Part shown: positions 3,001 to 55,815 of the stretch, in pieces
Position numbering within the stretch: position 1 is the stretch's first letter
Layout: the number at the start of each line of letters is the position of its first letter
Assembly: GCA_002189035.1 (NCBI GenBank)
Contig: NEEC01000021.1
Span: 1,116,001 to 1,180,000 of the forward strand
Origin: Utricularia gibba
Taxonomy: Eukaryota; Streptophyta; Magnoliopsida; Lamiales; Lentibulariaceae
DNA: 64,000 nucleotides
Direction: 5' to 3'
Made by a program: the position numbers and the translations under genes
The notes under the pieces: model-generated
Databases searched by the model: none
Told to the model about the DNA's origin: nothing
Seen by the model: only the letters and a program-made list of their open reading frames with translations

Positions 3001-6000
3001 GAAAGATTTTCCTGATTGAAGGCACTGGCATGAGCAAGTTTCTGAATGAGATTCAGCAACTCAAGTTGCAGCTTTGGGGTGAATAACAACAGTGTACGTA
3101 AAAGTATTCTAACAGCAGCGGCATTGTAAACATGATGTTGGCAAGGGTCAAAAGAACCAGTTGGTGTAAGCAAGAAAAAATGAGACGATTCGGCTCCTGA
3201 ATGATCAAATGCAGCAGTAATATCTGGCATCATAAAGGGTGGAAGAATGATCTCCAAAGCAAGCTCCATGAACAACTGCACAACTTGGCGTTCACACTCA
3301 ACACAAATCAGACCAGAGTCTGACAGAAGATCAAAAAAGGTATGTGAAGTCAATATTGCCATCAGTTTTGTTCGGTTGACTGCATTGTCTGAGACTCCAG
3401 TGGTCATTACCCGCATCATATATGTGAACACCTTAATACATGATGTAAGAGATGTTTGAATCTTCAACTCTCCATCGGTCTGAAATGAATGAAGTGTAGT
3501 GAGTAACAAGGAAAATCCAGTTGCTTCACCAAAAACTCTCTGGGCTGGACAATTAACACCTAATACACGCCATACGGCTCCAAACAAATCACATTTGGCA
3601 TCATCTAATAGTGTAAATTGAGATCCCAATGTACTTGTGACCATCCCACTTTTCAAAATTTCAACCAGAGCGCCCAACTCTTCTGGATGAACCTGAAAAG
3701 AAAAAAAAAACAAAAGGCACACAGCAGAAATGTCAGCGGTAACTAATTCACTAATTCAAGAAATACAGGAAATCATTGAAACAACAAACTCAAGGATTAA
3801 AGTAATATTCAAAATGTAGAGTATTCAGAAACGGGAAAAGGTAAGTTTGTATTGATATCCCAACCTACTCTGAAAAGACTACATATAGGAATGAATACTT
3901 GCAATCACCAAGGAAGCAAAGAAATGGAACAGAAAATATTTACAGCATCAGTGGAGCTGAGAAGCAGAATAGACTGGCTGACCAAAAATGAAAAGAGCAC
4001 ATAACAAAAAGGCCGGCCATAAATGAACTATTATGGCCTAATTGTTGCAGAACCTATAGAAGTTACTCCACAAATCGCCAGAAAAGTCAAAGGGTCAACG
4101 GGTTAAGTTTGACTGCAATTAGTTGAAATGCGTTTGGATAACAAGGAGAAGTAAAAATCTCTCCTGAATTATTTTTAAAGAATCATAACTATAAAGAACA
4201 AAATGGCATACGAAGCATATAAAGGAAATGAATAGAGAATTTCATGCCTGTTTGGCGTCCTCAATTATCAAGCATGAAAGTAATCGAAGGACTCCTGAGC
4301 GGTGAATATCAGAAGCCAAAAATGGAAGTATGGTTGACACAGCATTAACCGAACGAAATAAATCTTGATTGGCTTCAGATTTTTTTAACAGGGAGACCAG
4401 ACATCCCAAGAAACAGCTATTGTTTCCAGAGTCTCAAAAAGGGGTAATTTTCCAGAACCTGTTTCCATGAGTTTTGGAGAAGAAAGAATTGCATCTTTTC
4501 CAGGCATCTTTTTCATGAGGCTGCTCATATCTTTTCTCTCTATATAGCCACTCTCACTCGTATGCTTACCAGATCCTAGTAGAAATTTATGCTGGGTGAT
4601 GTCATCTAGGAGAACCTCCAGTAGGCCAACTTCCCTTAGGATTTTCTTGTAAAGTTGGTCAAAGGATAGGAGTTTCACAAAGAATGACAAAATTGTGTGC
4701 TTCAATTCAGAGGTTACAGGTCGCTGCAGTAACAAGCAAAGTGAAAGCAACTCCTGTTCTGGAATAATATTCACTACAGTAACAGCATATTCAAGAATTT
4801 TCAAGATAATATCTTGGAGAGAGGTGGGAAAACCAGCCATATTTTGGATCAAGAGGGGAACCGTTCTCAGTTGCTGACATAGCTTGTAATTTTCAAGATG
4901 AGAGGAGAACATCCTAAACATTCTATTTATCACTTCTGCTTGCAGTTCAGCGGATTCTGCTTTAATTAAAATATCTTGCAAAACCTGTACAGCTTCTAAA
5001 TCTCGAACCTTGTCTCTATCCTTCTCCCAGAAGTCATCAGAAATCCTTTCTGAGGAGGAAGTACGATTTCTACCATGCCCATTAGGCTTTGTCTGCGAAG
5101 CTTTAGAGGATTTTAGTGCAGATGGTTCTAGAGAATATGAGGGACCTATTTGAGCAAAATTAACTATGGCATCAAGAAGCCTGCTAAGCGTCGGAGAGAG
5201 CTTGTCAGAAGACTTGGCTTCCTCTTTGTCATCTGATTTCACTCTTTCTATTTCTTCATGTACGCTGGCCAAAGCAGAATCATCAGAACTTATTGAATAT
5301 AAATTATGAGCTCGTTTATCCATTGACAAGGCCAATGCAAACTGCACCAAGAAGTGATAGCCATGAGCATTTTGAATGTCCTCTCTCAGTCTGACGCCAC
5401 CAGCCTCTACAAATCAGGAATTTCATATAATAAAAATTCATAGCATTCAGGAGAATATCACAAACCCAATAATATCAATCACTCAAAGGTGCAGGAAGAA
5501 TCTAGAGCCCTTTCAAGCTACAGAGTTATATACTCTAGGTAAGTAAGACTAAAAGCACTGCATTGATTCCACTATATGATGTATGCATCTTACCAGGCCT
5601 ATAAGAAAGTTCCACGCATTGCAGAAGCAAATCAATAATACCCATAGTATATGCAGGATCACCACAGTCCGGGTCAAAATCCTTGACAGCAGTTAGAAGA
5701 ACTTTGATCTGTCAGATGAAAAGAAAATTATAAATCAAAATCTGGACGTTTTTGTTACCAGGAATGAATTAAGCAATTATGCTAGGGAATTAGAAGTGAA
5801 TGAGATAAATCAAGAAAAACTTTATGAACTGGAAGTAGGGGAATTAAGATTATCCATGTACAACGACCACTAAAAAATGCCTTAGCATTCCCATGTCACA
5901 GTAATATGTAAATGAGTTTACAATAACATAAACAGTAAGTATCCACATACCATGTGATGCTTGCGTATATATTTTGCAGTGCAACCACTGTCATTAGCTA

Positions 6001-8639
6001 AAACAAGGCCAAGGATCTAAAGTACCACAGAGAGCGACAGCCATCAGTTGAAAGTTGGGGAAAACTGGTCAAATTCACCCATACCCCACACCAACCCCCC
6101 AAATATGGGAAAAAACACAGGGTGCAAGCCTGGAGAATGACTGGTACCTGCATAGCATGCCGATGCAGCTGAATGGCATGCAAAGGAATAAGCCCTTGCT
6201 TGTATCTAGAGAACGCCACTAAAGAACCATTGGCGACGATTTGAAAGAGCATCTCAAGTGAATTATCCTCGATTAGACTTTGAGATGCTGAAGGATGATC
6301 AGCCAATGCCTTCATGATGTGTACAACGCTTGCTTCCACCTTTCAAATGGAAAGCAAATGGACTCGTAAATCAAACATCAATTAGAAATAAGTCCAAACT
6401 GGGCTAACGGCCAGCACATAGAATAAAAACTGTGATTCACATTTGAGGCACAAAAGTACAACAATTCTGTTTTGAAAAGAATATTCATATTGTTGCAATC
6501 ATTTAATCGTTTAATTCTGAAGCAGTGGAAAATCTATTTTTTTAATAAAAATTACTCCAACCACAAATTTTAGCTTCCCCGAACATATGCATAGAAAACT
6601 CATAAAGCCCAGAAATACTGGATATTTTCAAAATTGTTTTTTTTTTTTTGGCACACTGTCTAGGAATATGAGAAATAATTACCTCAAGCTGTAAGGGAGG
6701 CCCAGATTCGTGATTTTCATTAACTAACAACAATTTTTCATTTTTTGGTTCTTCTGAAGAACAACCGTTGTCAAGAGCAGTAAGGGCATCTAGAACATTA
6801 ATAAGGCAGCACAAGATTCCAGAATCGATGATGGATTGTTTATCAATAGACTGTAGACAGAACAAAGAAATGAAAAGAAAAATGTAATTAGCAAGTGGTA
6901 AAAACTCAAAGAGAACAAATACGTGAAAAGCCACAAAAGCAAAACAAAATCTTAGAAAACACATTTACGAATTGATCAATACTTAAATAGGATAGTAAGT
7001 AAAAATAGTCACGCTCAATAATACCAACAAACTAACACCACAGAAAATCCTCATACATGTGAATTACAAGATAAAAGACACAAAATTCATGAAACATCTC
7101 ACATACAAGACTACAATAAATTACTTCAAGGAAACAATAATAAGAGAATGTGAACAATTTGCAACATAATGCAATGCTGTCAAAAATATTCATGAGTTTT
7201 TCGAGCCATAGATAATAAGTAAACGTTCAGGTAATCACTCATGTAGAATTTTTAATGTAGAAATCAACTGGGGTTTAATTTCGTATGGACACATGTGTGT
7301 GATGCACAAACCCCAGAGACAAGGACCTCCACCGCACGCAATAAATTTGCACCAGGTCTAATGCCATCCTGTGGAGAAAAATATATATATATATATATAA
7401 ATACCAAAAAAACACGAAGTACGAGCATAACATAACAAAGGAAGCAAGCTAATGAAGTATAAATATTAAAGGAACCTTGGTGATTTCTGAGTAAAATATC
7501 AAGATTTTCTCAGCTTCTAATGTTCTTTTTTTGCTGCTAAGCTTTAGTTTCTCTATATCTGATACAAGTGCCCTCCCGAGCACGAAAGAAAAAATATGTG
7601 TCTCTACCAACCTGCGGTCAAAAGCATAAGATTGTTTTTCATCTGGAGAATCATTTAGCGTTTAAAATGTGTTCTTCAATCATGGAGAAGATTCTATGCA
7701 ATTATCATGCAAACTCAGATTGATGAACTTCGCCATGGTGGTATACCAGCATGATGCAAATATCATCAAGACAACAAACATAAAAACACAAATCCAAACA
7801 GAAAAAAAAATCAGTATACCCAAAGGAAAAGTTAAATGGGACAACTGCAAAAGAAAGTTCCTCTTACATGGAAAGCAACTGAGCAACATTGTTGTGTTGC
7901 TTCTCTAGTCTACAGAAAATTTCTATTGTCCACATCAAAGCTTTTTCCTTTTGCTGCAACACACGAAATAGGTATTACATTAGAAGCAGCAATTGGTAAT
8001 ACAGGTGCCGTTCTTATAGGAGGATGTTCGTCTGCTGCACATGCATTTGAGGATAAAGAAACATAAACAAACTTTCCAACTCTATGAAACTCCAACTATA
8101 CCTTTTCAGAATTAGAAGAACGAAACACTTCCCAGTACCTCTTGAAGTCCAATTCCAATTCATGTTTGTCTCTGCTTTCAAGTAATCACAAAGAAACATG
8201 ATGGACTCTGTTAGTGTTCATGTACCAACACGGAAATGCACCCAAAAATTGCCAAGAACACATCTTGGATGTACTTCTCAACAAAATGAACTACTTTGAG
8301 AATGGACAGCAGTCCCACATAAGTGGCAGTATCATAACAAGGAGCGAAGAATTTGATTCTTCATCTGATAAAATCTGAATCATTTACTCCTTCGCCCAAG
8401 AAAAATCAAACAAAGTTGTAACTTGAAATAAACATACCGACCTTGAAGAAACAGTAAAATAAAAAATCAGACCTTGAAGACAAGGACCCGGAATCTTCAT
8501 TAGGCGAAAACGAAGTGCTGGCATCGTTGGAGCTATTTTCTTTGGAAGGGGAAGACAATGGAGAGGACGAAGGCGATGCTGCAGTCTGAGAAAGACCAAC
8601 TTTTTCCTTAATGTCTTTAAACAACGATGCCCATTTCAT
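1..8639 (-). CDS. SPI: SPIRRIG-type BEACH-domain protein, N-terminal part (3' end outside window)
   Basis: Partial gene; many exons. The start (8639) opens with MKWASLFKDIKEKVGLSQ, the family N-terminus, followed by a Ser-rich stretch. Exon 1 ends at 8473, exon 2 is 8171-8102 (ends RSSNSEK), and further exons carry armadillo-like helices, e.g. HIMKALADHPSASQSLIED near 6300 and a long exon at 5350-4390. The exon at about 2810-1612 encodes a concanavalin-A-like domain (PPAAGYSFVCWFQFQNLL, EGRWHHLAVVHSKPN). The exon below 1500 contains WTLWVTAPVSIQIALLGFLE and runs off the edge. The BEACH and WD40 parts should lie to the left, since family proteins are about 3,600 residues. SPIRRIG acts in membrane trafficking, trichome and root-hair shape and salt-stress mRNA handling in Arabidopsis. 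Everything visible is open and in frame when spliced, so it looks functional. Confidence 0.93.
7381..7399. repeat. (AT)n microsatellite in a SPI intron
   Basis: An uninterrupted AT run lies within an intron of the SPIRRIG-like gene, just upstream (lower coordinate) of the exon encoding the IRPGANLLRAVEVLVSG segment's 3' splice context. It is non-coding. Confidence 0.9.
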
Positions 8640-38443: not shown

Positions 38444-38461
38444 AAATCTGTCACCGTTCTC

Positions 38462-39192
38462 ATGGAGACTTCGCGTAACAAAATGCAGCTTGTTTGTGGG
38501 AAAGAAGCCCTTGATCTGCTCAACTGCGTCTCAGAATCGCCCTACGATCAGCAGAAGTGCATCCTCCTTCTTGAAGCCTTGCGCCAATGCGTTGTTAAGA
38601 GGGTAAACCAACAATCATCATTTTTGAGTTTCTGACCCAGAAAGATTTTTCGTTGCTGAGGGCGATTCTTGGTAGTTTATTTAAGCCGTGATTATTGTTG
38701 ATGCGTGAGGTGTAATTGAGGGCAACTTACACCACCATGGTTTTCAAGCTGACCAGTGATTGTTCGTTGGCTCCTCTGGAAATGGAGTTTCTAGTAACCA
38801 GTGATAGTTATAGTAACTATGGGAGCATGAATTCTTGAAACTTGCAACTACTGCTTTATAGTGACAAGGCTGATGGTGCCCTGGGGGGTTTTATGTTAAC
38901 TAGATTGTTCTGATCCAACTTGGTAGCTATGTTCTGTCTTTCCTAGATTGATTTGATCAAATTTTGTAGTATGGTTCGCTTGGTGGTCTCTGATGATGCC
39001 AAAATCACCATCATCATACAGACTAATTATTGACTACATTCTTATTCTCCTGGAGTGGAATAGCACCTTTTCTGCAGTTTATCTTTTCATGCTGAGCCTG
39101 TTTGGTATAAATTGAGTGTTTCTTTTCAGAAAGTGAAGAAGTTCTCTCTTGCTGATCAAGGTGAAGAAGCAAAGCAAATAAAAAATCCCTGA
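38462..39192 (+). CDS. Small twin-CX9C (CHCH) mitochondrial-type protein
   Basis: Two exons, 38462-38602 and 39130-39192, giving 67 residues. Exon 1 opens METSRNKMQLVCGKEALDLL. Four cysteines are arranged as Cys-x9-Cys (CGKEALDLLNC) and Cys-x9-Cys (CILLLEALRQC), the twin-CX9C helical hairpin imported into the mitochondrial intermembrane space by the MIA40 disulfide relay. Exon 2 encodes KVKKFSLADQGEEAKQIKNP and a stop. The donor is AGG-GTAAAC and the acceptor TTTTCAG. Its precise role is unknown to me; members include respiratory-chain assembly factors. The telo-box and site II motif upstream fit a mitochondrial housekeeping gene. Confidence 0.82.
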
Positions 39193-39649
39193 GTTTTCCG
39201 GAAGTTGGGATATAACTATTCAATGTGGGATTCACTCCCCGCACAAGCACACTCCTAATGACACGCTGGTTCATTTTTGTACTACAGTTGAACCCGGATA
39301 CTCGAATCGACGCCATTTAAGTGGTTGTGGAAACAACCAGACTGCATATGAGAATTAGATACCATTTGGGAACTGTTTGAAATCTTCTGATATGGTTGGT
39401 GTTGTTTGTGTTCGTTTTCAATTCACACTGCAGTGCAAAACCTTATTTCAGAGGTTCATGTTACAGAGGCCTAAATCCAGGAATCTATGAGAATATCAAC
39501 TGTTGCAGCTTTGCTGTGATGGTGTGTTTGTTTCGGCATTTGGTGTTCTTGGCTCATGATCTTTATAGTGCCATTTTGCTGTTGTTGGTTCATGATTGGC
39601 ACCAAAAGGGTCATAAATATCGCCGGCTCCGGGTTACATCCACCCTGTG
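39193..39649 (+). other. 3' flank of the twin-CX9C gene
   Basis: About 450 bp, presumably including the 3' untranslated region. A short open frame at 39396-39674 lacks recognisable similarity. No other gene seen. Confidence 0.5.
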
Positions 39650-41415
39650 GATCTACATGGATAGTCTGGGCTAGAGAACATCAAAAGTGTATTGGGCTGC
39701 CTTTAGCATGTGGGCTGGGCTATATCCCGTAAGTGCCGAACCAAATACTTAGGCTGGGCCATCGCTAGATGCCAGATGGGCTTCATTTTGTGTTCGGGCA
39801 AAGCTGCACTTAGTGCGTGGGCTGGCCACATCAATAGCTGGACTGGGGATTAATTTACTGTTCAGTCTGGGCCATGCTAAAATCTGAGCTGGTCTATTGC
39901 TATTCTATGGGCTAGGCTTCATTCTGTATTCGGGCTGGACCTCACCACAAAGCTGGTCTGGGTCGCACTTAGTGTTTGGGCTGGGTTACATCCTGTACGT
40001 TTGATGGGCTGCATATAACATGTGGGCTGGGTTCGGGCTGACCCTTTACAAATATATGGGCAGGCCGTAGCCAGTAGATGGGCTGGGGTCGAAAAAGTGC
40101 GTGGACTGGGGCTTATTTAAGTGTTTGGACATGACCGCACCAAATAAGTGGGCTGGGTCTCACCTTGCTTTTGAGCTGGTCGATATCCACTACGTGGGCT
40201 GGGCCGCATAAAACATATCGGCGAGGCATCGTTTTTGTGTTCGGGCTGGGTCGAAACAAATCTAGGCAGGCCTGCATTTAGACTTTGGGCTGAGCCGCAT
40301 TGAACAGGTATCTGAGCCGTGGCAAGTAGGCAGGCTGGGCTGGGTAGCACATAGATTGTGGGTTGGTCGCACCAAATAAGTGGGCCGAACCAAATGTTTG
40401 ATCTGGGCCGCACTTAGCTTATGAACTCTGCTACATCCTGTACGTGGGTTGGATCATTAAACATGTGGTCTGGGCTTCATCATGTGGGGTGGGTCGAATA
40501 TAATACTTGGGCTGTCCCGCATGACGCGTCTGGGCGGGGCCGTAGCTAGTAGGCGGGCTGGTCTGCATTTTACATTCAGGCAGGCACGAACAAATTGGGT
40601 TAGCCTACTTCCCATACGTGGGCTGGGCATCATTTTACTGTTCGGGCTGGACCGCACATAATACTTGGGCGGGGCCGCAAATATCATGTGGGCTAGGCTA
40701 TATTTATTTTGTGTACTGGGCTGCATTAATTATTTGGGCTGAGTTTCATTTTGTGTGCGAGATGGGCCTCATTTAGCTTGTAGACTGGGCACCAGGTGGA
40801 CTGACCGCATCTAGTAGGTGAACTGGACTTAATTAAGTGTTCGGGCTGGGCCGTAGCTAAAAGATGGGTTGGGCTTCGTTTTGTGATCGGGCTGGGTCGC
40901 ACCATATCCTTGGGCATACTCTTAGTTATACATTGGGCGGGGCCGTATCTAGTGTGCGGACTAGGGCTTAAGTGTTTGGGCTTAGTCGCATCGAGCATGT
41001 GCGATGGGCCGTGGCTCGTAGGCAGGCTGGGCACCACTTTACCGGGCTGAGTCGGACTTAGATTGCGGGTTGAGCTCCATCCATCCAAGATGTGGGCGGG
41101 GCTTTGTGTTTGTGTTCGGGCTTGTCATACCAAGCACATGGGCTTGGCAGCAGCAAGGCAGTGGGCTGGGCTGCCTTTAATATGTGAGCTGTGCTACATT
41201 TGTGTTCGGGCTGGTCCGCACCAAATACTTGGGCGGGTCCACATTGAACATCCGGGCATGGCCTTAGGTATTAGGTGGGCTGGGCCGAAGTCAATATATG
41301 GGCGGGGCATCATTTTTGTTAGGCCGAGCCGCACCAAATACCTGGGCCGGACCGCATTAAGCGTCTGGGCTGCGCTGCATCTTTTAGGTGGGCGGGGCTG
41401 CATACAACTTTGGGT
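39650..41415. repeat. Degenerate GGGCTGGGC-rich tandem array
   Basis: About 1.75 kb built from variable 22-32 bp phrases, each ending in a TGGGCTGGG-like core. Recurring phrases are TTTTGTGTTCGGGCTGG, CGCACCAAATACTTGGGC, a CATTAAACATGTGGGCTGG type and GTAGCTAGTAGGTGGGCTGG. They recur in loosely ordered sets, suggesting an old higher-order minisatellite. The array lies just upstream of V-ATPase subunit H and sharply contrasts in GC with surrounding DNA. TGGGCC/TGGGCT is the plant TCP site II core, so the array carries dozens of potential sites. Open frames on both strands (e.g. 41088-40726) come from the repeat and show no known domain. Confidence 0.85.
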
Positions 41416-41602
41416 TTATCGGCATTCGTGAAAAAAGTTGCAGTTTGGTTATCTGAGAAGAACAATTTCGGAAAAGGGCGGCCCAGTTTTTGTTATACGA
41501 GGCAATCTTTTTTATTTACAAGATGTCGTTGCTCTAGTTTTATCTGAGAACAATTTCTGGATTCGATCTGCCGTGATCAAGTTCCCATTTTTATGCTCAC
41601 CG

Positions 41603-44501
41603 ATGCCGACGAGTCAATCGGAGTTGTCCACAGAGCAGGTGTGTTTCTTGATTAAGCGGTCGTTGGCAGAAACTATTGGTGGATTGTCCCTCTGTTTTTC
41701 AAGTTAGGATTTGCTTGTGTTTCCTTTCATACGTAATTGTGACAAGAGCTGGTGTTTGAAGGTTGTTTATTGGGGAAATGGGTCCATAAGTTGACAGTAT
41801 GATTTTCACATTTTGGTTTTTTGGTTAATTGAAGGTATTGAGGAGGGATATCCCATGGGAAACATATATGACGACGAAGCTGATAACAGGAACAGGGCTT
41901 CAGCTGCTGCGACGGTACGATAAGAAGCCCGAGAACTATAAGGCTCAGTTGCTTGATGAGGTAATCCTCCTGCTAATGTGTGTATTTGTGTGTGTGATCC
42001 AGCTTCCATAAGATTTAAATGGTCGATATTGTACGCTGATCCGTTTTGTATGCAATGAATATGTAACTTAGTTAAAATGTCGAATTTCCAGTTGGTGTTG
42101 GTAAATAGAGCAAATCCATCGAGAACCTAGAGAAAGTTTTCTGTTTTTCAGGATGGTCCATCTTATGTTCGCGTTTTCGTCAGCATTTTGCGTGACATAT
42201 TGAAGGAGGAAACTGTGGAGTACGTTTTGGCTTTGATTGATGAAATGCTTTCAGGTAAGTGATAACACTGGTGATGTTTCCAAGTTTTTGGGATGAATAG
42301 GCTGATCTGTTGAAATCTTTTACATTGCAGCAAACCGAAAGCGAGCAAGATTGTTTCATGATAAGGCTCTTTCTGATGAAAATGTATACGAACCTTTTCT
42401 GAGGCAATGATCTGCTATCTTAGACTGTGCATTCATTTGTTCCTTTCAATTTAAACTAGATCTTCTAATGTCTCTTCTCGATGGTATTGATCTGTTGATC
42501 AATGCTTAGTGTTATCAAGTAAAAAAAGAAAGGTAGTGTAGAATAATTGTTATTTTTCAAAGATGGTGTACTTTTAGAACCTTTTGGTGCCAATCATGGC
42601 CCTATGCGTTAGTGTTGTTTTCACTTATTCAAATGTCTCACCATTTAATATATGCAGATTGCTCTGGAAAGGTAACTGGTTTATACAAGAGAAGAGCTCT
42701 AAACTTCTTTCTCTGATAGTGAGGTAAAATGTATGGGATTATCCCTCCTTCACCTGTCTTTTCTCCCGACATCATTTTCTTGCTTCCAGTGAAAGACCAC
42801 AAATTGAGGATTTGGTTGTTGCAAATGGATCATCAAATTCAAAGAAAGCGATTACTACAATACCTGATGTTTTGAAGGGCCTAGTTGATTGGCTGTGCTC
42901 ACAGGTTTGCATTCCGTTATCTATTTATTTTTCTTGGTATGAAGGCTACTTTTCTTGAGACATCCCTACGTATAAAGCTTCACTAACTACAATTTGGCAC
43001 ATAGAATTCGTACAAGCACTCACATTTGAAAACTGGTAGAAACATCAAAAATTTCGGAATCCTAGTATCTTAGAGAATTATGAATATATTTTTGTCTCTG
43101 TTTCTTAAGTTGAGTGTATATTTTCTCCGGACAAGTCAACTGTACGAAAGATATGGATGATAATGGTCTAATTGATACGCATTGCATTTTGCACTTCGCA
43201 GCTGAGGAGTCCTAATTCTAGTCATGGCATACCAACTGCCATTAATTGCCTCGCAAATCTACTGAGAGAGCCTGAAGTGCGATCTTTGTTTGTGCAAGCA
43301 GATGGAGTAAAGTTGCTCATTCCTCTAATTTCTCCAGCATCAAGCCAACAATCTATTCAGGTAATATCAAGGATTTTGATAGGGGTCATTATGCCTGCAT
43401 GTGTCTGCACTCTACATGTAGTACATCAACTTTCTAAAACAAGTCCATGAGCCCCCTTTATCACAGCTCTTGTATGAGACCTGCCTTTGTGGCTGGCTAC
43501 TCTCGTACTATGAACCTGCAATTGGGTATTTGGCTACTTCAAAAGTCTTGCCACGATTAGTTGAAGTTATTAGAGGATCCACAAAAGAAAAGGTACTATT
43601 CTAGCCTTATTTGGTTATAATAATTGCATCAGTAATGGCCTACTATTTCTCTAGGATCTTTGTTTATTTTTTTTTCATCCCTCCATGACTCTGACCATTT
43701 AATCTCACTGTAGGTTGTAAGGGTGGTTATCTTGACTCTCAGAAATTTGTTACAAAAGGGCACATTCGGAGCTGACATGATTGAACTTGGGTTGCCACAG
43801 CTAATTCAGAACTTAAAAGCTCAGGCATGGAGCGATGAGGTGAAATGCTATTTTAAGCCGCAAATTCCCATAGTAGACGTTGTTTAGCACACAAGATTAG
43901 AGATTAGCCTGCCAAAAATAGGACCTTGGAGAGGGTCTCTGGAATATCCAATATCACTAACTACGTATTATTCTGAAGGATCTGCTTGAAGCTTTGAATC
44001 AAATGGAAGATGCACTCAAGGATAAAATCAAGAACCTCAGTTCTTTTGACAAGTATAAGCAGGATGTCCTCCTTGGCCGTCTAGATTGGTCACCTATGCA
44101 TAAGGATCCTGTATTCTGGCGTGAAAATGCTACATGCTTTGAAGAGCATGATTTTCAGGTAGAATCCTCCACCTACATAACACATGTACTGAGCTTCATC
44201 TGGCTTCTTGGCAAGATCATTCCTTCTAAGCTGATGCGTTGCGATCATGCAGATTTTAAGGGTCCTCATCACAATTTTGGACGCATCAACTGATCCCAGA
44301 ACACTGGCAGTAGCTTGCTTTGATCTGTCACAGTTCATCCAGTACCACCCTGCAGGGCGCATCATCCTGACTGATCTCAAAGCTAAAGAAAGAGTTATGA
44401 AGCTGATGAACCATGACAACTCCGAGGTTACTAAGAACGCTTTGCTCTGCATTCAAAGGCTGTTTCTGGGTGGTAAATATGCGAGCTTCATGCAGGCCTG
44501 A
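41603..44501 (+). CDS. VHA-H: V-type H+-ATPase subunit H
   Basis: Regulatory H subunit of the peripheral V1 sector, needed for coupling ATP hydrolysis to proton pumping at tonoplast and endosomes. Eleven exons: 41603-41638, 41835-41960, 42152-42254, 42331-42403, 42658-42723, 42790-42904, 43202-43360, 43467-43592, 43714-43839, 43979-44158 and 44253-44501, giving 452 residues. It begins [20 protein letters not shown], contains [20 protein letters not shown] and [20 protein letters not shown], and ends [16 protein letters not shown]. Length and sequence match the family throughout. The exon-4 donor is GC instead of GT (CTGAG-GCAATG); the encoded [11 protein letters not shown] across the junction leaves no GT alternative. 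The leader abuts the GGGCTGGGC array. Confidence 0.95.
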
Positions 44502-54473: not shown

Positions 54474-55609
54474 CCCTGTAAAGCTGTAGCGGGTGGATTA
54501 CCACCTCTTGTGTAATTATATAGAAAGCCCTCTTCTTTGGCAGCTCATACGACCACCTTCCTATCCTATGTGCTGCCCCATCCTGGTTTTGCGATACTAC
54601 TCATCCCTGTCCCACAATCGCCTGGATCAGTTCTATGTTTCGCACCAGATGGCTCCAAATCCACCCATTAGCCACCCCTCCGGCTCAAACCGTAGTTGGG
54701 AAACATGGGCTCTGTGGCTCCCACGCCCCCTCTAACCCAAAGGTAGCTCATGCTCCTCTCTTGTCTTGGGACTCTACATTGGCCCTTATTTTGTCTGTTC
54801 TATCAAAATATGCTTACTTTTAGAGTTCTGATTGTATTGCTTCTACTGTAACGAAAACTTCTATAAACGGGGATTGCGGTTCATGAGGTTGGTCCCAAAC
54901 CAGGACCGGTATCCGGAATGAATGGAGGGCAAGGGGCATTTGTCGCGGACCTTGGGAGAGCGACCTAAGGATGCGATTTCACTTGGCGTACCGAATGCAC
55001 ACAGAAGTATTGGTTAATTAGGAAACTATGATGGACATCTTTAGTATGAGTTGATCCACACCACGAATTTAGAACCGAAACCGCAAAAGCGTAAGATCCC
55101 GGTTTCCATACACCAAATTTGTTACAAATGATGAAATAGATGTAATTAAATCTCTCGAATATTATACAATATCTTTTTTTTGTTATAAGAATAAAACGTA
55201 AAATTATGAGAATTGAGCGATCAAAATAAATACTAAAAGGATATTTGATAATATAATATATAATATTTATATCTAAATACATATGTATCGCTATTTAATT
55301 GACTAATATATAGTTATAACACTCATATACTCATTTTTTGAGTATATAAATAGTATATACAAATATAGAAAGAAGAGGGGAAAACAATTATATATATCAC
55401 TTGTATAATTAGATTTTTATTTTCGAATAACGTTATATATAATTTAGTATAGATATAATCAATTATACTATAATTGAACATATTAATACCTCTAAATACA
55501 AGATGAGTTTGGCCGCCAAATTGTTTGGCAATTGATTATTAGATGAATCGCATGGTTTGGTTTTCGAACTCGAGCATTCTCTAGTCAAATCACCAAATTA
55601 GGCATTCCT

Positions 55610-55815
55610 TAATCCGGTTTCCGGCTCATCCATCCGAAAGCCTGGAACCGCATGCTCCCGGAGGCAACGGGGCCCCGGCGGAGGCTCAGCCACAAGGGTT
55701 CACGTCGAGGGCCAGGGCCCAGGCCATGGGAGCCACTGGAAACGTGTGGCGTGGGGTTTTTCTTGCCGGCATGTGGAGTCCGATTTGCCACGTCGCGCCA
55801 GACCAATAAACCATC
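55610..55815. other. GC-rich island of unknown origin
   Basis: About 200 bp of GC-rich DNA in AT-rich spacer, with GGGGCCCCGGCGGAGGC and GGGCCAGGGCCCAGGCC blocks and a CCACGTCGCG motif near 55790. Short open frames exist on both strands but have no recognisable similarity. It resembles the 16.75 kb island only in composition, not in readable sequence. Confidence 0.4.

Follow-up and report, generated by a model that had tools for sequence, protein, structure and literature searches.

A degenerate 23-bp tandem array upstream of the V-ATPase subunit H gene of Utricularia gibba: probably an old minisatellite of a dispersed, low-copy family

Dozens of hexamers resembling the binding sites of TCP factors are crowded into less than 2 kb of DNA shortly before the V-ATPase subunit H gene (VHA-H) of U. 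gibba, and the question is whether they form a regulatory element or are the remains of a repeat. Two explanations had been put forward from the DNA letters: an old minisatellite, or a cluster of TCP-binding (site II) motifs that was retained as an enhancer or insulator. We analyzed the array within a 64-kb stretch of the genome (the window), together with related arrays and duplicated loci elsewhere in the assembly. Based on its structure, its relatives and its pattern of decay, we conclude that the array is probably an old, decayed minisatellite, a member of a low-copy dispersed family with a GC-rich core, gained on one of two duplicated loci.

Structure and extent of the array

The existence and position of the array were confirmed by three approaches. 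Comparison of the interval with itself gave peaks at offsets of 23, 46 and 69. When all 64 kb were scanned for periodicity, the two most periodic 600-bp segments fell inside the array, both with a period of 23 (z 9.5 and 7.6). Segmentation was performed by fitting a cyclic 23-column profile by dynamic programming over 39,641-41,430; this yielded 81 unit slots, about 78 of them clear (39,668 to 41,411, with either edge uncertain by about one unit), and a score of 1190 compared to 242-255 for three shuffled copies. The units run head to tail, every one on the forward strand. TGGGC occurs 50 times on this strand of the interval and never on the other, and G exceeds C with a skew of about 0.2. The original prediction described phrases of 22-32 bp; the phrases do recur, but units are most often 23 bp long, and small indels account for the wider range. 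As head-to-tail copies of one unit within the 6-100 bp size range, the array falls within the definition of a minisatellite. A weak 27-bp period (z 5.3) was also seen at 55,201-55,800, the next most periodic 600-bp segment after the array.

Tandem Repeats Finder and self-comparison had been suggested as checks, and only the latter detected the array. Even at a score of 30, Tandem Repeats Finder did not report it because the units are too diverged. Highly diverged tandem repeats that this program misses have been described in rice (PMC8064497), and, as in rice, the period of the window array is visible to profile methods only. The rice survey differs in that it does not deal with a core-sharing family and that most of the repeats found there were 2-3 bp long.

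Table 1. Features of the array and its surroundings (positions within the window)
Feature	Position	Strand	Basis and remarks
Degenerate tandem array	39668..41411	+	23-bp unit with consensus GGGCTGGGCCGCATYTARTATGT, present in about 78 copies; autocorrelation, cyclic-profile segmentation, window periodicity scan
Three near-consensus units of different phrase types (GGGCTGGGCATCATTTTACTGTTC, GGGCTGGACCGCACATAATACTT, GGGCGGGGCCGCAAATATCATGT)	40620..40689	+	Unit table from segmentation; phrase types tested
VHA-H first coding exon, 12 residues	41603..41638	+	Sequence; Pfam V-ATPase_H_N and H_C matches in later exons; paralogue alignment
Upstream neighbour exon, Cx9C/CHCH-type small protein	38444..38635	+	Pfam CMC4 (E=1.1e-5) and CHCH (E=6e-5), both below curated cut-off
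One promoter-proximal site II box (reads GGCCCA on +)	41480..41485	-	Beyond the array, 123 bp ahead of the VHA-H ATG
Segment also conserved at the locus of the VHA-H paralogue (L022 3639-3696)	39113..39169	+	84% identity over 58 bp; upstream synteny anchor

Outside the core, the units of the window array fall into recurrent phrase types, as had been predicted. The nearest-neighbour distance across the non-core columns was 0.177, compared to 0.225 ± 0.007 after column shuffling (z 6.5). The further prediction was that core and phrase order persist. Over all unit pairs the core is more alike than the remainder (0.35 versus 0.53 difference). Phrase order in the window array is weakly non-random, with 9 repeated phrase pairs where 4.0 ± 2.0 would be expected (z 2.5), and no higher-order unit lag there was significant. 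Order is strong in sister arrays (the L-numbers used here denote other genomic stretches, retrieved around core-dimer matches or duplicated loci), with bigram z values of 45 in L029, 28 in L016 and 19 in L014. These younger arrays also carry higher-order repeats of seven units (L029, z 15), three units (L016, z 11) and five units (L014, z 5). We predict that such arrays would grow, and would acquire higher-order phrases, through local unequal exchange or slippage.

It is extremely unlikely that the array specifies a structured or coding RNA. Of two 301-nt pieces, one folded slightly better than its shuffled versions (z -2.4; the other, -1.5), but Rfam gave no match, the array contains no long reading frame and its period is not a multiple of three. 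A search for a strict G-quadruplex pattern found no matches.

TCP-like sites and their decay

The array was considered as a possible enhancer or insulator of VHA-H because of its many TCP-like sites and its location. It holds 38 TGGGCY-type sites in 1.8 kb, whereas the rest of the window averages 0.6 per kb, and the VHA-H start codon follows 192 bp after its end (41,411 to 41,603), in good agreement with the 200 bases originally given. In several arrays of this kind, namely the window array, L009, L013 and L024, the G-rich strand is the sense strand of a gene located no more than 300 bp downstream. Such an arrangement would favor a regulatory role, but the arrays of L008 and L017 appear to sit at gene 3′ ends. 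Known site II promoter elements are few and proximal. They (TGGGCY, GGCCCA) contain the same hexamer as half of the core of the unit; in the array, however, the hexamers belong to a 23-bp tandem repeat confined to one strand, an arrangement that tandem duplication yields, and they are not retained in excess. At the VHA-H paralogue the array is missing, and the proximal GGCCCA boxes number just two (-182 and -151). Published work also favors the regulatory reading in that site II motifs were reported from divergent intergenic regions of U. gibba; in the same study, insulator-like elements had no common motif that was not also promoter-associated (PMC10663240).

If selection had kept the TCP sites, then intact sites should exceed the number expected when each column decays independently. 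The window array showed no such excess. At the two core positions, 21 intact TGGGCY sites were counted where 20.4 ± 2.7 were expected, and 15 where 13.8 ± 2.5 were expected. Further, nearest-related units of the array mismatch at 0.21 in the core and 0.24 in the remainder. The two values are nearly equal in most of the large arrays (0.08/0.08 in L008, 0.09/0.09 in L029), although the ratio is biased towards 1 since the pairs are picked by total similarity. At the higher-order lags, where pairs are not similarity-picked unit by unit, the ratio of core to remainder was 0.87 in L016 and 0.72 in L029; a hand estimate that allows for out-of-register pairs suggests that both are compatible with equal rates. 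Among changes in the core, G>A and C>T together account for 74 of 128 and so predominate.

Two observations are more favorable to retention. Intact TGGGCY exceeds expectation in L012, L015, L016 and L024, and the greater likeness of the core over all pairs of the window array means that slow long-term constraint is possible, as is core-dependent amplification. Taken together, the neutral number of intact sites, the near-equal mismatch of core and remainder (21% and 24%) and the arrayless paralogue argue against a TCP cluster retained as enhancer or insulator, which we regard as very unlikely. As it stands, the array DNA may have some regulatory effect. The decay statistics join the structure of the array and the existence of a family in supporting the alternative of an old minisatellite. 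We propose that tandem amplification of a 23-bp GC-core unit took place in the intergenic DNA upstream of VHA-H and that the amplified array would then have been left to drift, accumulating heavy mutation in the ordinary decay of a repeat; a lack of function seems probable. A tempting regulatory reading is thereby corrected: a decaying minisatellite can leave dozens of TCP-like hexamers in front of a gene.

A dispersed family of arrays with a common core

The genome (100.09 Mb in 516 contigs) was searched for relatives. A search with the DNA of the whole array matched only the array itself, and other arrays were first recovered with a loose core-dimer pattern. The census was built on such patterns, which gave 44 matches at a spacing of 23 bp and 39 at 22 bp; a pattern for one type of array (X, below) gave 63. 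Reversed versions gave none in either case. Candidate arrays were scored with unit profiles, for which the controls reached at most 32 (real non-array DNA) and at most 58 (the window array, as a tripled shuffle). Besides the window array, at least some 20 others scored well above these controls. They lie at unlinked loci and thus form a dispersed family, having in common a 22-23 bp period and a GGGCTGGGCY core. The remaining 13 bp or so vary between arrays. The sharing of the core is partly by construction, since the arrays were found through it.

Two types can be distinguished. X-type arrays (L008, L009, L010 and L011) have the GC-rich remainder TGCCAYGAGGAKYC and a mutual identity of 69-82%. 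Y-type arrays (the window array, L012-L017, L023, L024, L029, L036 and weaker ones) have in common the core, the period and a few columns (A16, T18 and T22 in most). No longer phrases shared by the window array and other arrays, including L014 and L029, were found beyond the control, and the best cross-array BLAST match of the window array reached 42.8 bits, compared to 50.0 for a column-shuffled control. The weakest arrays counted (L025, L026, L027, L032 and L034) are all short. L027 may be an ordinary promoter cluster because it precedes a ribosomal-protein-like reading frame, identified by eye. L030, L031, L033, L035, L037 and L038 were left uncounted, as they scored close to the shuffled-array control (best 58) or lower, and the profile search gave no match in L028 and L040.

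The original prediction reasoned that membership of an abundant genome-wide satellite, together with a lack of accessibility and TCP occupancy, would speak against regulation. A genome-wide family does exist, but the known arrays total about 28 kb, or about 0.03% of 100 Mb (a lower bound), so that the array belongs to a low-copy family and not to abundant satellite DNA, which makes up a large fraction of a genome. Its members are clustered: 7 neighbour pairs lie within 300 kb, one of four distances tried, compared to 1.2 expected (P 5e-5), and 6 pairs remain when a local duplication is dropped (P 2e-4). L034 and L015 (C375:1,467 kb and 1,485 kb) lie 18 kb apart, have part of their flank in common and adjoin papain-type protease genes; they probably represent a local duplication carrying an array. 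The flanks of different arrays are otherwise mostly unrelated, and their reading frames match ordinary plant genes.

Dispersal to unlinked sites would also be expected if the array were a tandem region inside a transposable element of hAT, CACTA, foldback or Helitron type, and a head-to-head junction in L008 and a direct repeat around L012 point in the same direction. Against this, unrelated arrays have no common flanks, Pfam revealed no transposable element domain in the flanking reading frames (for most flanks, the longest one was scanned), and neither terminal repeats nor a target-site duplication were seen by eye at the empty site corresponding to L009. We consider this origin highly unlikely. 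The array of L008 (C142:1,486,000-1,495,999) spans 4.7 kb (3007-7756), with about 440 bp of units on the forward strand up to a junction near 3450 and then 4.3 kb on the reverse strand. That of L012 (C1:6,413,500-6,423,400) spans 3.1 kb between 293-bp direct repeats that are 90% identical and could be a duplication or the remnant of an inserted element.

The common core raises the possibility that it is mechanistically special, with GGGCTGGGC-like sequence promoting recombination or replication slippage so that arrays are born or renewed around it. A core of this kind would be kept, along with the 22-23 bp period, while the remainder differs, as in the GC-rich core of hypervariable minisatellites. 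The arrays do agree in core and period and differ in the remainder, X-type and Y-type arrays have little else in common, and several arrays show recent amplification. On the other hand, the search by core builds in part of this agreement, and the X-type arrays are one sequence family that descent explains; we think a special core unlikely. By a related and likewise unlikely scheme, the GC-rich core and its fixed 22-23 bp period would repeatedly seed or renew arrays at new gene-rich sites of this minute genome, with the remainder free to vary, such that core and spacing spread and not the whole unit.

The minisatellite that we favor has counterparts in other organisms. Plant minisatellites can show wide divergence within a family as well as head-to-head junctions (PMC2820488). 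Beta vulgaris BvMSat05, described in that paper, has a short unit (21 bp), a within-family identity of 38-100% and head-to-head junctions as in L008, but it is AT-rich, unrelated in sequence and accompanied by a conserved 50-bp flanking motif, whereas the present family has no common flank. The same paper cites GC-rich cores in Arabidopsis and human minisatellites, which resemble the present arrays in unit size and in having a short GC-rich core across different loci. In the present family the core is GGGCTGGGCY and the period is 22-23 bp, and the window array is strongly decayed. A search of the accessible literature for papers joining minisatellite, TGGGCC and plant found none. In kind, the window array is nothing unusual, a decayed minisatellite belonging to a dispersed family of low copy number. 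It also brings to light tandem arrays of one family, partly invisible to Tandem Repeats Finder, in the compact genome of a plant.

Duplicated loci and the origin of the array

Three duplicated loci were compared with their array-bearing counterparts. The VHA-H paralogue (L022, C1:2,969 kb) is syntenic by a 58-bp upstream anchor and by coding and intron matches; the array is absent from it, and the spacer there is otherwise unalignable. No array was found near the duplicate of the HSP20 gene of L024 (C4:635 kb), where the 5′ side does not align. The clearest case is the duplicate of L009, at a TIM17-type gene (C4:576 kb). Its flanks align to the edges of the array on both sides, and 15 bp occupy the place where L009 holds about 1.6 kb, making this a near-precise empty site. 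Such a site makes the birth of these arrays datable.

Precise loss of the array from the duplicates is possible. As all three duplicates lack an array, gain on one copy is simpler to assume, and we infer that the arrays were gained. Insertion or local expansion would create them at single loci, on one copy of a duplicated gene pair. The original prediction had taken absence from close relatives as a sign of recent expansion; as far as related copies are concerned, absence is what the three loci showed. The gene downstream of the L009 array has a GOS11-like start, identified by eye.

Blocks at C413:3,969-4,354 kb and C4:530-930 kb have duplicated genes in common (TIM17-type and HSP20) and hold three arrays each, although these do not occupy the two duplicated sites checked. 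The array of L029 (C321:1,338.8-1,341.1 kb) lies on the same contig as the window array, about 183 kb away, and consists of 109 units whose seven-unit higher-order repeat measures about 150 bp.
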